A DNA stretch of 34,009 nt from Syntrophorhabdaceae bacterium (GTDB lineage: Bacteria; Desulfobacterota; Syntrophorhabdia; Syntrophorhabdales; Syntrophorhabdaceae): positions 1 through 34,009 of the forward strand of contig DASXUJ010000037.1 in NCBI GenBank assembly GCA_036504895.1, given 5' to 3'. A program made the translations under genes and the position numbers. Positions 25,031 through 33,186 of the stretch are shown here, piece by piece. The notes under the pieces were generated by a model that was not told where the DNA came from, ran no database searches, and worked only from the letters and a program-made list of their open reading frames with translations. Each line of letters starts with the position of its first letter. The stretch's first letter is position 1.

Positions 25031-25272
25031 TTCGGATTACCTCCCTCGAGCTTGAATTCGGGTCTTAACAGGCGACGGTTTATGGAGCTATTCTAGCAGG
25101 AATAATTGACCTGAGGCAATCTAAACCGTTCCTCGCAGGAGGTCCTTCTTTAAAATGGTCAGGCCGGCGATCAACAGGAGATTGAATCTTGAATCCTCAT
25201 AAGTATGGGTTCTTGCCGCAAAATATCTTATAATAGGATTAGGGTTTATAATCTATCTACGGGAAGGTGCGT

Positions 25273-26022
25273 ATGATGCAGGTGGTTCTGTTGAGGCATG
25301 GAGAAAGCCAGTGGAACCTGGAGAACAGGTTCACCGGGTGGACCGACGTCGATCTTTCGGAGCGGGGAGTTGAGGAGGCACGAAAGGCGGGGGAGATTCT
25401 CAAGAAAGAAGGATTCCTCTTTGATGTGGCATTTACATCGGTCTTGAAGAGGGCGATAAGGACCCTCTGGATTACACTCGAAGAAATGGACCTGATGTGG
25501 ATACCGGAGATCAAATCGTGGAGGCTTAACGAGAGGCACTATGGGGCACTCCAGGGGCTTAATAAAGCTGAAACCGCAAAAGCCTATGGAGAAAAACAGG
25601 TTCATGTCTGGAGGAGAAGTTACGACATCCCCCCTCCTGCGCTCGAACTTTGCGACACAAGGTATCCGGGACAAGAAGGGAAGTATGAAGCGGTCGCCAA
25701 AGACGAAATACCCCTGTGCGAAAGCCTCAAAGATACGGTGGAGAGGTTTCTTCCCTATTGGCACGATTCTATAGTGCCTACCATCCGCCAGGGGAAAAGG
25801 GTCATAATCGTCGCCCATGGAAATAGCCTGCGGGCTCTGGTGAAGCACCTGGACAACGTGTCCGATGAGGAGATACCGGAATTGAACATCCCCACCGGGG
25901 TTCCGCTCGTTTACCAATTCGATAATGACCTTAAACCTATATCTCACAGGTACCTCGCCGACGTGAGCGAGTTGGAGAAGGCGCTCAAAAAGGTGACCGA
26001 CCAGGGTAAGGCCGAAGGATAA
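25273..26022 (+). CDS. gpmA: 2,3-bisphosphoglycerate-dependent phosphoglycerate mutase
   Basis: The 249-residue enzyme interconverts 3- and 2-phosphoglycerate in glycolysis and gluconeogenesis. It has [19 protein letters not shown] with the phosphorylated His, the substrate loop [26 protein letters not shown], and the second catalytic His in [14 protein letters not shown]. Length matches the GpmA class. GGGAAGG sits at good distance from the ATG at 25273; an in-frame GTG at 25267 overlaps that ribosome site and is less likely. Two TATAAT boxes in tandem (about 25229 and 25246) lie upstream, but neither has a good -35. Confidence 0.94.
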
Positions 26023-26034
26023 GGGGATGTTATT

Positions 26035-26913
26035 TTGAATTCACCCGTCCTTCTCCTTTCGGCGGAGGAAAAAGAAAGGTTTCACAAGAAAATATGCGGT
26101 CATTATTTGCAGTATGGCCGCGATCTGCCGTGGAGAAAGACCCGGGACGGATACCGGATTTTTGTTTCCGAGGTAATGCTTCAGCAAACGCAGGTGGAGC
26201 GGGTCATGGGCAAATATGAGGATTTCATCTATCTCTTCCCCTCCTTCGCAGCCCTTGCGGATTCTTCTTTGAAGGACGTGCTTTTCGCATGGCAGGGCCT
26301 CGGCTACAACAGACGGGCCCTTTCCATGGTCGGAGCAGCCCGGAAGGTGGTGACGCACCATGATGCTGCGCTGCCCCGAACAATAGGAGATCTGGCTGCC
26401 CTTCCGGGCATCGGGAAGGCCACAGCCGCCGCTATACTCTGTTTCGCATTCGATGAGCCTGTGCCATTTATCGAAACAAATATAAGAAGGGTTTTTATCG
26501 ACCATTTCTTCCAGGGCACAGGACCGGTGAAAGATAATGAAATCCTTCCTTTAATTGAAGAGACCCTCGACCGCGACGCCCCCCGGGAATGGTTTTATGC
26601 CCTCATGGACTACGGGTCCATGCTCGGAAAAAAATCGGGCAATGCAAACCGTAAGAGCGCTCATTACCGGAAACAGTCTCCTTTCGCGAACTCGGACAGG
26701 CGCGTACGGGGAGCCGTTCTTAAACTTCTTCTGACGGAAGATTCAGTGTCTTCAGCCGACATCGGCGCCCGTACCGGGGTTTCAGCCGAAAGGGTCCTGC
26801 CGATTCTACGATGCATGGAGAGAGAAGGGCTGGTAAAGGAGACGGAGGGAACGTATATGATTAATGATGGAGAAAAAATGAATTCTCCGTCGATTTCGAT
26901 TGCACCCTCATAA
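26035..26913 (+). CDS. MutY-like HhH-GPD DNA glycosylase lacking the Fe-S cluster
   Basis: The 292-residue protein matches the catalytic half of A/G-specific adenine glycosylases: LPWRK (31-35), VSEVMLQQTQVERV with the catalytic Glu46, and the helix-hairpin-helix LPGIGKATAAAIL (123-135). Two things differ. The catalytic Asp of the PILDGNV region of E. coli MutY is replaced by Glu147 in VPFIETNIRRV. The four-cysteine [4Fe-4S] motif after the core is absent; that stretch reads MLGKKSGNANRKSAHYRKQS. Instead of the NUDIX-like domain the C-terminus looks like a winged helix (VRGAVLKLLL to EGLVKETEGTY). It starts with TTG behind AAGGGGA and follows gpmA by 12 bp. Confidence 0.78.
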   Translation: MNSPVLLLSAEEKERFHKKICGHYLQYGRDLPWRKTRDGYRIFVSEVMLQQTQVERVMGKYEDFIYLFPSFAALADSSLKDVLFAWQGLGYNRRALSMVGAARKVVTHHDAALPRTIGDLAALPGIGKATAAAILCFAFDEPVPFIETNIRRVFIDHFFQGTGPVKDNEILPLIEETLDRDAPREWFYALMDYGSMLGKKSGNANRKSAHYRKQSPFANSDRRVRGAVLKLLLTEDSVSSADIGARTGVSAERVLPILRCMEREGLVKETEGTYMINDGEKMNSPSISIAPS

Positions 26914-27029: not shown

Positions 27030-28313
27030 ATGAAGGGGCGAGTGATATTGGTCATGGTAATTCTCGGAATAATGATTTTAACAGTCTCTCTGGCAACACG
27101 GGGAATTGCCCAAAAGCCGGCGGTGCCGGAGAAGTTGCCCGAGATCCCGGAAGGAGAATACGACCCGGCTTATTGGGGAAGATTTTATCCCCTCCAGTAC
27201 AAGAGTTGGCTCAAAAGCCTCGAAACATCGCCTTCACCCACCGGATACGGAGGAAGTATAAACTTTCAGCATTCTACCAGGCAACCCGAGATTCTGATGA
27301 ATTTTAAGGGCATGCCCTTCAGTAAAGATTACAGTGAAGATAGGGGCCATCCTTATGCACTCGGTGATTTTAAGCAGAGCAAGAGGGTTACCGCTGCTAG
27401 CCCGGGTGCATGCATGACCTGCAAGACTGCCAATCTCAAGGACATCTATAAGGAGATGGGCGGGACATACGCGAAGAAGCCGTTACAGGAATTGCTTCCA
27501 AAGCTGACCCACAGCATCACCTGTGCGAACTGCCATGATCCGGCTACCATGGGACTTCGCATTATGAACCCCGCATTTACCGAAGCAATGGAAAGACGGG
27601 GCATTGATGTGAAGAAGGCGTCGAGGGAAGAGATGAGGAGTTTTGTGTGCGGCCAGTGCCACTCCGAATACTACTTCGAGCCCGGCACGACTCGCGTGAT
27701 TTTTCCCTGGAATAAGGGGCTAAGGCCGGACCAGACATTTGCCTATTATGAGATGAAACCGGGAGGGTTCGGTCAGGATTGGGTTCATCCCGATTCAAAG
27801 GCTAAGATGCTGAAAGCCCAGCACCCTGATTTCGAGACGTGGAGTACGGGAACCCACGGCAGCGCGGGCGTTTCCTGCGCTGATTGTCATATGCCCTCGA
27901 TGAAGGAAGACGGAAAAAGATACAGTTCCCATTGGATCACGAGCCCCATGAGAACCGTTGAATCTTCCTGCAGCCCGTGTCATGAAAAAGACGCCCGGTG
28001 GCTCAGGAGCAGGGTGAAAACCGCCCAGGATACCACATGGCTATTACAGCGTACGGCAGGACAGCTTGTGGCCCGTGCCCATGAGACCATAGGCAAGGCC
28101 GCGGCCGCGGGTAAAGCAGATGAGGCCCGGCTTGAGAATGCCCGGGCACTGGTGAGAAAAGCTCAATGGTACTGGGATTTCGTGGCCGCCGAAAACAGCA
28201 TGGGCTTTCACAACCCCGTGCAGGTCCTGGGCACATTGGGACAATCCATCGATCTTGCCCATCAGGCGATCGAAGAGGCGAACCGGGAGAAATGGGAGAA
28301 ATGGGAGAAATGA
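27030..28313 (+). CDS. nrfA: Ammonia-forming cytochrome c nitrite reductase NrfA
   Basis: The 427-residue periplasmic protein has a signal peptide (cleavage after about residue 27) and five heme sites. The catalytic site is CMTCK (128-132), the Lys-ligated heme peculiar to NrfA. Four CXXCH sites follow: CANCH (165), CGQCH (207), CADCH (283) and CSPCH (314). SEYYFEP after heme 3 and MLKAQHPDFETW match the calcium-binding region, and THGSAG and MGFHNP supply His ligands. It reduces nitrite to ammonium with six electrons. No nrfH (NapC/NirT-type quinol dehydrogenase) lies beside it. The C-terminus ends in a short WEKWEK repeat. GAGGTG precedes the ATG. Confidence 0.93.
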   Translation: MKGRVILVMVILGIMILTVSLATRGIAQKPAVPEKLPEIPEGEYDPAYWGRFYPLQYKSWLKSLETSPSPTGYGGSINFQHSTRQPEILMNFKGMPFSKDYSEDRGHPYALGDFKQSKRVTAASPGACMTCKTANLKDIYKEMGGTYAKKPLQELLPKLTHSITCANCHDPATMGLRIMNPAFTEAMERRGIDVKKASREEMRSFVCGQCHSEYYFEPGTTRVIFPWNKGLRPDQTFAYYEMKPGGFGQDWVHPDSKAKMLKAQHPDFETWSTGTHGSAGVSCADCHMPSMKEDGKRYSSHWITSPMRTVESSCSPCHEKDARWLRSRVKTAQDTTWLLQRTAGQLVARAHETIGKAAAAGKADEARLENARALVRKAQWYWDFVAAENSMGFHNPVQVLGTLGQSIDLAHQAIEEANREKWEKWEK

Positions 28314-30470: not shown

Positions 30471-33173
30471 TCACCCGGGCTGTCCCGGCTGCTGCTGTGG
30501 TTTCTGCTGCTGTTGCTGTCTTTGTTGCTGCTGTTTCTGCTGCTGCTCTCGCTGTTGTTGTTCCCTCTGTTGCTGCTGTTTCTGCTGCTGCTCCTTTTGT
30601 TGCTGCTGTCTTTGCTGCTGTTCTCGCTGCTGCTGCTCCCTTTGCTGCTGCTGTTGCTGTTGTTTTTGCTGCTGCTGCTGTTGTTGTTCCCTCTGTTGCT
30701 GTTGTCTCTGCTGCTGCTCTCTTTGCTGTTGTTGCTGCTGCTGCTGTTGTCTCTGCTGCTGTTCCCTTTGCTGGGCCTGCTGCTGTTCCCTTTGCTGCGC
30801 CTGCTGCGCCTGCTGTGGCTTAGGCTGCTGCGCCTGCTGCTGTGTCTGCTGCTGTGGCTTAGGCTGCTGGGCCTGCTGCTGTGCGTGTTGCTGCGGCGGC
30901 TGCTGCTGGGCCTGCTGCTGCGGTCTCGGAACCTGGTTTACCTGTCCCGGCTGGCCCGGTTTTGAGGGGGGTGTTATTCCACCCGGCTGTGACGGCTGGC
31001 CTGGCTGACCAGGCCTCGACGGAGGAGTAACTCCGCTGGGCTGTCCCGGCTGTCCCGGTTTTCCCGGAGGAGTAATCCCACCGGGCTGGGTGGGCTGTCC
31101 CGGTTTTGAGGGAGTAGTAACCCCGCTGGGCTGTCCGGGCTGTCCGGAAGGAGTCGGCTGACCGGGCTGACCCGGTTTCGACGGAGGAGTAATCCCGCCC
31201 TGCTGTCCCTGCTGTCCCGGTTTTCCCGGAGGAGTCGGCTGTCCCGGCCTTGACGGAGGTGTTATGCCGCCCGGCTGGGTGGGCTGTCCCGGTTTCGACG
31301 GAGGCGTAACCCCGCTGGGCTGTCCCGGTTGACCCGGCTGTCCGGGTTTCGACGGAGGAGTCGGCTGTCCCGGTTTTCCCGGAGGAGTAATCCCACCGGG
31401 CTGGGTGGGCTGACCCGGTTTTGACGGAGGAGTAACCCCGCCCGGCTGACCCGGCTGACCCGGCTGACCCGGCTGACCGGGTTTCGACGGAGGAGTCGCC
31501 TGACCCGGCTGACCCGGTTTTCCCGGAGGAGTCGGCTGTCCGGGCTGACCCGGTTTTCCCGGAGGAGTGGCCTGACCAGGTTGACCAGGTTGACCAGGAC
31601 CCGTAATTCTCCCGGTAGGCTTCACATCTTTCTGAACGAGTTTGACTTCTGCTTTCGGCTTATTCATCTGGTTTGCAGGTACGATGTAGTCATGGCTCTT
31701 CGGCTGATCGATCTTGGTATTGCGGTTGATCCTTCCCTCAGGAATCTTCTTTACCTGCTGCTCGAGAGTCTGGGCGTTTATATTCCTGACTTGGGGCATC
31801 GCCTTCTCGTTCTGCCTTATTCTCGTGACCACGCTGTTGTGGGGTTTATTATTTACCGTCACATTCGTGAAATTGAACTTCTGCTTATTCGTTGTGTAGT
31901 TGTTGATGACCGTATTGTTCACCACCGGAGCTGCCCTGTAATTATTGATAATGGTGGTCTGATTGATATTGGTTACCCGAACGCTCCGATAATTGTTCAC
32001 GTTGTAAAAATTGTTCTGATTCACCACCACCGCTTGATTCACGTATGCATATCTATTGATATGAACATCCACGTGTCTACCGCCGGTTATGACGATGTCG
32101 TGGCGGCCTCCCCAGTGGCGATGGCTATAGTAAGGTTCCGCAGGGGCAAGGGGCACCCATCCTACGTTGGGGCCGCTATGTATCCAGGCGACTCTTCCCG
32201 GGGTCCAGGCGAAGGCGATATCCAAAAGAGGTATGCCGGCTACTACCCTTGCGACGGGTGGGGCCCAATACCAGTGATGGCCGACGCGGACCCAGTTGCC
32301 GTAGTGGTGCGTCATATATCCGAAAGGCTCTGCAGGAACCCATGTCTGGTCGCCGGACCAGTCGGTCCAACGGCCCGCCGTAAACGGCGCCCATCCAGCA
32401 TCCACATTCACCGGCCGCCACAATAGCCTCTCTCTGCCTTCATACACGACTCTTTCCCATCTGCCGTTCTCCTCCAGGACATAGGCTTCGTCCTGCAGTG
32501 CGGGAGGGAGGTACTTCGCCGACGGACCTCGGACTCTTACCTTTGATGCCCAATATGCTTCACGTGTTCCGTTCCACTGGTCCCACGTGGGATCAACGGC
32601 CCCTTCGCCCGAGGCGACCTGATTCTGGTCGGCGAGAACCGATGGCGAACCGGCAGTCACATCATATTTTGCCTGGGTTGAAGAATGGATGAAACTGACC
32701 TTGCCTTTGACGGCGATCACCTCGACCGAATTCTCCCCAACGTAGAAATCAAAGACGGAGCCCGGATAGGCGAGCACATAGCCGAAAGGACAGGTGGCCT
32801 TAATGACTGTTTTGTGGCCTTTATTGTAAAAACGTGCCACCCCGGAAGCCACGTCAGCCTCCGATACCTCGACATCGAGGGCGATGAACTGAATCTGGGT
32901 GCTGTAGCCGTTCCTGATCCAGGTCCCGTTGGGAACGATTAGTTCATTCATCCCCTGGGTCCCGGAAAAAAGTGTGTCGCCGGCGCCGAAGGGCGCATCC
33001 TTGACCACGGCCACCCAGTCATTTTCCGCCGCAACATAACGAAGAAGGTCCCCCTCGATATGGTAGACGCGACCCACGACCACGGAGGGCGCATCAGCCG
33101 CGAATGACGGCATGATCATCGCAGCCACCGCGGGGAACAAAAAGACCATGAATACCAACCATCTTTTCATCAT
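30471..33173 (-). CDS. Secreted FecR/DUF6600 protein with collagen-like and Gln-rich tail
   Basis: The protein is 900 residues from ATG at 33173, seven bases after AGGAGA. A signal peptide ([20 protein letters not shown], cut near SFA-A) leads into a FecR-like beta domain (about 30-190: [29 protein letters not shown]). A Trp/Tyr-rich DUF6600 segment follows (about 240-340: [22 protein letters not shown]). Next come an Asn-rich region (375-440), a collagen-like Pro-Gly-Gln region (about 521-744) and a Gln-rich tail with interspersed Arg, Glu and Lys (about 750-900). It is probably exported; whether it is surface-bound or periplasmic is unclear. The tail suggests an elongated, disordered or adhesive structure. 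No partner gene is adjacent. Confidence 0.8.
30474..30920 (-). repeat. CAG/CAA trinucleotide-rich tract (poly-Gln tail)
   Basis: About 450 bp of near-pure CAG/CAA codons on the minus strand, broken by CGG, GAG, AAG and GCC codons. It encodes blocks such as [13 protein letters not shown]. Long open frames on the opposite strand here (Cys- or Leu-rich) are artefacts of the triplet repeat. Confidence 0.9.
30938..31605 (-). repeat. Collagen-like [12 protein letters not shown] coding repeats
   Basis: About 670 bp built from variants of the units PGQPGQ and [16 protein letters not shown] 51-bp stretch at 31047-31097 recurs without change at 31362-31412, 315 bp (105 codons) apart and in frame, which points to recent duplication or recombination. 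Confidence 0.9.
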
Positions 33174-33186
33174 TATCATCTCTCCT

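Follow-up and report, generated by a model that had tools for sequence, protein, structure and literature searches.

Clusterless homologues of MutY were reportedly the subject of a 2016 FEBS J. article by Trasvina-Arenas et al., whose title points to a dispensable cluster in some MutYs. Such 'clusterless' MutYs are noted, with citation of a 2016 FEBS J. paper, in the part of PMC11078426 that was available, and according to the same part 5 of 160 Lost City MutYs carry Glu in place of the catalytic Asp, all five retaining the four cysteines. A 2025 meeting abstract (Horvath, Malek, Yama, Trasvina-Arenas and David; PMC12585504) states that representatives of the archaeal MutYAs can replace MutY in E. 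coli and that their C-terminal domain is a predicted winged helix-turn-helix replacing the NUDIX fold. For MutYX of Eggerthella sp. YY7918, the abstract (PMC12585504) reports the same winged helix-turn-helix fold from a crystal structure; it is silent on the cluster and on the Glu. PDB entry 8UUC, released in January 2025, is titled as a bacterial clusterless MutYX on an abasic site analog (THF) opposite d(8-oxo-G). Within the literature searched, no account of 8UUC was found, MutYX was named in PMC12585504 alone (it is unnamed in PMC12000561 and PMC12938805), and 'cluster-less' together with MutY gave no match. As MutYX has already been described with cluster loss (title of 8UUC) and a winged helix (PMC12585504), and as the Glu is visible in the 8UUC sequence, we regard the protein presented here as a further MutYX-type member.

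The window, by which we mean the whole analysed stretch of 34,009 nucleotides, contains a gene whose product is very probably a MutYX-type MutY lacking the cluster. The following features were assigned:

26035–26913, plus strand: probable MutYX-type clusterless winged-helix MutY gene; single open frame of 292 aa with a TTG start
26170–26172, plus strand: codon of Glu46, aligned with the catalytic acid Glu37 (E. coli) or Glu43 (G. stearothermophilus)
26182–26193, plus strand: QQTQ, residues 50–53, a motif common to canonical MutY (MIG-like enzymes have QR, HR or RR)
26359–26445, plus strand: helix-hairpin-helix, residues 109–137 (Pfam PF00633, E 1.4e-6)
26473–26481, plus strand: Glu147-Thr148-Asn149, with Glu at the catalytic Asp position and Asn retained
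26596–26598, plus strand: Tyr188, at the alignment position of Gln182 in the adenine pocket of E. coli MutY
26623–26694, plus strand: residues 197–220 at the position of the [4Fe-4S] loop, a conserved cysteine-free NxNRxSaHYxxQxxFxxSxR segment
26695–26862, plus strand: predicted winged-helix C-terminal domain, residues 221–276 (helices 221–234, 240–247 and 251–264; strands 267–270 and 273–276)
25267–26022, plus strand: ORF upstream of the glycosylase gene, 12 bases away, not part of the function

The glycosylase frame is intact, ends with a stop codon at 26911–26913 and has the same G+C content as the window (52.1%). An AAGGGG sequence (26021–26026) is located 8 bases 5′ of the TTG start. A terminator and promoter scan returned 3 terminators (2.9 expected) and 5 weak promoters (1.9 expected), and a plasmid search matched 72 records, each below 60% identity. 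The best mutY model was TIGR01084 (residues 16–201, E 8.5e-49), but the 166.6 bits reached fell far short of its cut-off of 286.5; with 45.2 bits against 211.7, the protein was also below the cut-off of the nth model. The Pfam domains HhH-GPD (residues 44–161, E 2.3e-11) and HHH were both above their cut-offs. Like canonical MutY/MUTYH (TIGR01084), the protein has an HhH-GPD core, the catalytic Glu (Glu46 within SEVMLQQTQ), QQT and GLGY. In contrast to the canonical enzymes, it lacks the [4Fe-4S] cysteines and the NUDIX domain and has Glu for Asp and Tyr for Gln182. Glu147 (ETNIRRV, 26473–26475) aligned with Asp138 of E. coli MutY. The only cysteines are residues 21, 136 and 260, none of them at the would-be cluster loop; the cluster motif C-x6-C-x2-C-x5-C is absent, and no NUDIX domain was matched in Pfam at E ≤ 1. 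The QR, HR or RR of Mig.MthI-type T/G glycosylases is not present and QQ is found instead. The MutYAs, compared by description because PMC12585504 does not give their sequences, share the MutY-like core and the winged helix in place of NUDIX.

An AlphaFold2 model computed from an 11-row alignment (mean pLDDT 89.9, pTM 0.86) predicted three helices followed by two β-strands for residues 221–276, which corresponds to a winged helix. Confidence was high in this region (pLDDT 89–95 for residues 221–280 in ten-residue blocks), and lower at residues 201–220, the position of the cluster loop (pLDDT 78). In Pfam, residues 221–276 gave weak matches to HTH_Crp_2, TrmB and IclR, all under the gathering scores. 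Among solved structures 8UUC was by far the best match (Foldseek E 1.7e-21, TM 0.85/0.90), and it was also the top hit by sequence (phmmer E 7.8e-58). Superposition, a check suggested in the earlier note, aligned 264 residues of 8UUC with model residues 11–276, including the winged helix (VIA Z 32.3, 1.7 Å, 40% identity). Ordinary MutY structures came next, aligning some 200 residues at Z about 25, and the T/G glycosylase Mig.MthI (1KEA), which shares the HhH-GPD fold, reached Z 22.3 over 196 residues at 24% identity. Like the window protein, 8UUC has ETN and a Tyr in place of Gln182, and its aligned part is free of cluster cysteines. The two are about 40% identical and differ in their nearest rows in the tree described below, which are actinobacterial rows for 8UUC and rows from the host phylum and archaea for the window protein. 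The anatomy described in the earlier note was correct point by point: Glu46 and the helix-hairpin-helix are intact, Glu147 stands in place of the catalytic Asp, the cluster cysteines are gone, and a winged helix, aligned with 8UUC up to residue 276, takes the place of NUDIX.

The distribution of this type was determined by TIGR01084 searches of 198 genomes from the host phylum, 145 from a CPR phylum, 147 from an archaeal phylum, 149 from actinobacteria and 120 from spirochaetes, the phylum labels being based on record titles. Altogether 243 sequences from these samples, from ten genome-scan loci and from further retrieved stretches were typed by alignment. After removal of one Nth row with a misaligned ETH (L002, scored 'E, FeS'), 90 Glu-type sequences including the window protein were obtained (host phylum 20, archaea 18, spirochaetes 18, CPR 14, actinobacteria 10, genome-scan loci 10). 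None of the 90 contained the cluster motif; within the 45 residues examined, 83 had no cysteine and seven had one. As Glu and cluster loss recur together in 89 other sequences, these features of the window protein are more than chance. Glu46 was found in all 89 sequences covering the position and Asn149 in all 90, while residues E46, Q50, Q51, T52, G125, G127, E147, T148, N149 and D192 were invariant in a 42-row alignment. The Tyr188 position was more variable (Tyr in 51 sequences, Asn in 13, Trp in 12, Ser in 10, Gln in two, Gly and His in one each). Among the Asp rows, 114 had the cluster motif and 38, by a loose pattern, did not. The latter comprised 22 haloarchaeal-type rows with four cysteines in another spacing, six rows with three to five cysteines that carry QR, HR or RR and were presumed to be MIG-like, and ten rows with one cysteine or none (seven from CPR, three from the host phylum). 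Clusterless MutYs which keep Asp (DTN) were observed within or beside the Glu-type group, namely L090, L094, L096 and L099 from CPR and L054, L057 and L058 from the host phylum.

A family tree had also been suggested in the earlier note; a quick tree of 147 rows calculated with the catalytic column omitted placed all Glu-type rows in the tree together with seven Asp-type clusterless rows in one group (SH-aLRT 96). It contained 89 Glu-type rows (one of at most 200 aa was omitted), 8UUC and samples of other types, among them 34 of the 106 canonical sequences, five of the 22 of haloarchaeal type and six of the 13 MIG-like ones; on this tree the Glu label requires at the fewest two changes. Among relatives of the host, matches were found in neither of the two genomes of the same genus, in eight of the 22 of the same family and in four of the seven of the same order; the family and order matches were 49–56% identical. 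All seven that were retrieved (L269–L275) had ETN and no cluster motif. This patchy presence indicates that the gene was gained or lost often.

The Glu-type and other MutYs did not occur in the same genome in any of the five samples. In the host phylum, among the matches listed (at least 82 bits), the clusterless kind was found in 23 of 198 genomes (20 ETN, 3 DTN) and canonical MutY in 54, with no genome having both; here canonical means at least 233 bits (50 of the 54 were above the cut-off and 30 were checked by alignment), and the contig-end fragments G194 and G192, near 100 bits, were placed in neither class. Likewise, no genome with both was found in spirochaetes (Glu-type 19, other MutY 40, of 120), actinobacteria (11 and 55 of 149), archaea (19 and 22 of the haloarchaeal type, of 147) and CPR (15 and 15 of 145, the latter including Asp-type clusterless rows). 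One-sided tests, uncorrected, with kinship ignored, untyped rows omitted and part of the lists assigned by score alone, gave p 3.9e-4 for the host phylum, 2.0e-4 for spirochaetes, 0.005 for actinobacteria, 0.037 for archaea and a non-significant 0.18 for CPR. In the 'other MutY' class, sequences were retrieved for all 22 archaeal and all 15 CPR genomes and for 30 of the 40 from spirochaetes and 33 of the 55 from actinobacteria, the rest being classified by score. Neither list includes lower-scoring rows without a retrieved sequence (e.g. G490, G462, G364, G596, G592, G648, G708 and G232) or some retrieved actinobacterial and MIG-like rows. In the ten genomes of the genome-scan loci no match exceeded the mutY cut-off. 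This mutual exclusion fits an enzyme doing the work of MutY. A MIG-like enzyme, in contrast, was present beside the Glu-type in 5 of 19 archaeal ETN genomes, showing that the Glu-type does not stand in for MIG.

The search for a second canonical mutY, likewise suggested in the earlier note, found no other MutY in the host genome. Other HhH-GPD ORFs were C129, above the nth cut-off, and C11, which is Tag; C58 (nth) and C80 (3-methyladenine glycosylase PRK13913) had these as their best matches, below cut-off. Two MutT-like NUDIX ORFs exceeded the NUDIX_4 cut-off, and MutM/Fpg was not found in this genome, which is rated 100% complete. Across the host phylum MutM was present in 15 of 23 genomes with the clusterless kind, 29 of 54 with canonical MutY and 54 of 121 with neither, and it was not significantly commoner with the clusterless kind than with neither (p 0.11).

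Of the 90 Glu-type loci, 12 (11 from archaea) have a frame for DNA photolyase or UvdE no more than 118 bases from the glycosylase frame. Photolyase adjoins the gene in L059, L138, L139, L143, L207, L216 and L221 and UvdE in L059, L141, L206, L208, L213 and L214, so that L059 has both; Pfam confirmed ten of these neighbour proteins, which belong to nine of the 12 loci. Among 153 other loci, MIG-like and Nth included, none had either of them within 1 kb (Fisher p 4e-6), a contrast that is inflated by kinship and hindsight, as the test was set after the neighbours had been seen, Glu-type loci supplied the queries and the flanking sequence covered varies from locus to locus. Other recurring neighbours were ORFs that we take to be RecG-like (L010, L012, L016, L228) and cytidylate kinase-like (L017, L227, L228, L232, L235). 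An initial neighbour cluster of eight loci was discarded since its ORFs, judged by their coordinates, run antisense to the glycosylase gene and overlap it. The window's own neighbours are uninformative. The upstream ORF (25267–26022), presumably phosphoglycerate mutase-like according to an LRHGES motif, is possibly co-transcribed with the glycosylase gene, and the ORF just downstream (27030–28313, plus strand) is assumed to encode a multihaem cytochrome resembling nitrite reductase (CxxC[HK] motifs). Elsewhere in the window, a 902-aa ORF on the minus strand (30471–33179) has a long PGQPGQ and poly-Gln tail, and its antisense strand carries a cysteine-rich ORF. The breadth of the Glu-type family and the photolyase or UvdE frames beside 12 of its 90 members are possibly new details.

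Residues, predicted fold, family and the finding of no other MutY are direct observations, and we infer from them that the protein most likely removes adenine opposite oxidised guanine. In such a mechanism the HhH-GPD core would locate the mispair and wedge the helix with its QQT and GLGY loops, and the adenine would be flipped into the pocket. Glu46 would protonate the base and activate the water. Glu147 together with Asn149 may do the job of the MutY Asp, stabilising an oxocarbenium ion or a covalent intermediate. The winged helix would grip the DNA on the 8-oxoG side instead of the NUDIX domain, and the cysteine-free NxNRxSaHY segment would stand in structurally for the [4Fe-4S] loop. The two MutT-like ORFs of the genome and the partial activity that E. 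coli MutY retains when its Asp is changed to Glu (PMC12871665) are in line with this reading. The protein would then be the only A:8-oxoG glycosylase of its host genome. Some observations speak against activity on A:8-oxoG: the NUDIX domain, which recognises 8-oxoG in MutY, is missing, Tyr188 replaces the adenine-contacting Gln182, raising the question of how the enzyme would grip adenine, and MutM was neither found in the host genome nor significantly associated with the clusterless kind across the phylum.

The earlier note had proposed that the target lesion may differ from A:8-oxoG. A glycosylase which moved to another lesion (e.g. T:G, U:G or deaminated adenine), with Glu147, Tyr188 and the winged helix as marks of the change, would account for a Gln182 position occupied by Tyr in 51 and by Gln in only two of the 90 Glu-type sequences, for the MutM not found in the host genome and for the photolyase or UvdE adjoining 12 loci. 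In the available part of PMC2714593, the Q182L exchange lowers the rate of E. coli MutY about tenfold, and both V45A and Q182L bind T/G far tighter; Mig.MthI itself has A50 and L187 instead of the Val45/Gln182 pair. The same mutants, however, gained no T/G cleavage (PMC2714593, same part), and 8UUC, with the same three features, was crystallised on an abasic analogue opposite 8-oxoG. Moreover, QQ is present in all 89 Glu-type rows covering the position, whereas MIG-like rows have QR, HR or RR, and GLGY is retained in the window protein. Further points against a differing lesion are the archaeal winged-helix MutYAs substituting for MutY in E. coli (PMC12585504) and the five samples in which Glu-type and other MutY never shared a genome, yet a MIG-like enzyme coexists in five archaea. 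We therefore found the proposal unsupported and consider another lesion quite unlikely; a shifted substrate preference is possible but not indicated.

Even less credible, and in our view highly improbable, is a catalytically weak or dead relic disabled by the Asp to Glu exchange and the loss of the cluster. As far as the available section of PMC12871665 goes, Asp to Asn inactivates E. coli MutY and Asp to Glu leaves only some activity, and the patchy distribution among relatives of the host would also fit. A relic is difficult to reconcile with the residues invariant in 42 members, Glu147 among them, with the intact frame at the G+C content of its surroundings and with a model that is confident for core and winged helix.

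Beyond the MutY-like activity favoured here, a more far-reaching idea seems to us rather doubtful. The Glu-type winged-helix clusterless MutYs of archaea, CPR, Spirochaetes, Actinobacteria and the host phylum might be one iron-independent repair lineage, which repeatedly displaced canonical MutY and reads 8-oxoG via the winged helix. Its adenine pocket (Tyr, Trp or Asn for Gln182) and sugar-side carboxylate (Glu) might have been rebuilt so that substrate range or kinetics differ from those of MutY, and in archaea it might work with UV-repair genes.

The setting of the window gene is a genome in which it is the sole MutY found and in which no MutM was found. The clusterless MutYs that keep Asp offer a natural Asp/Glu comparison. 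For judging what the cluster contributes, a natural and widespread lineage that lacks it and has a different carboxylate and C-terminal domain can serve directly as a control. This control is already available through MutYX, and the window gene adds to it a member from another group.
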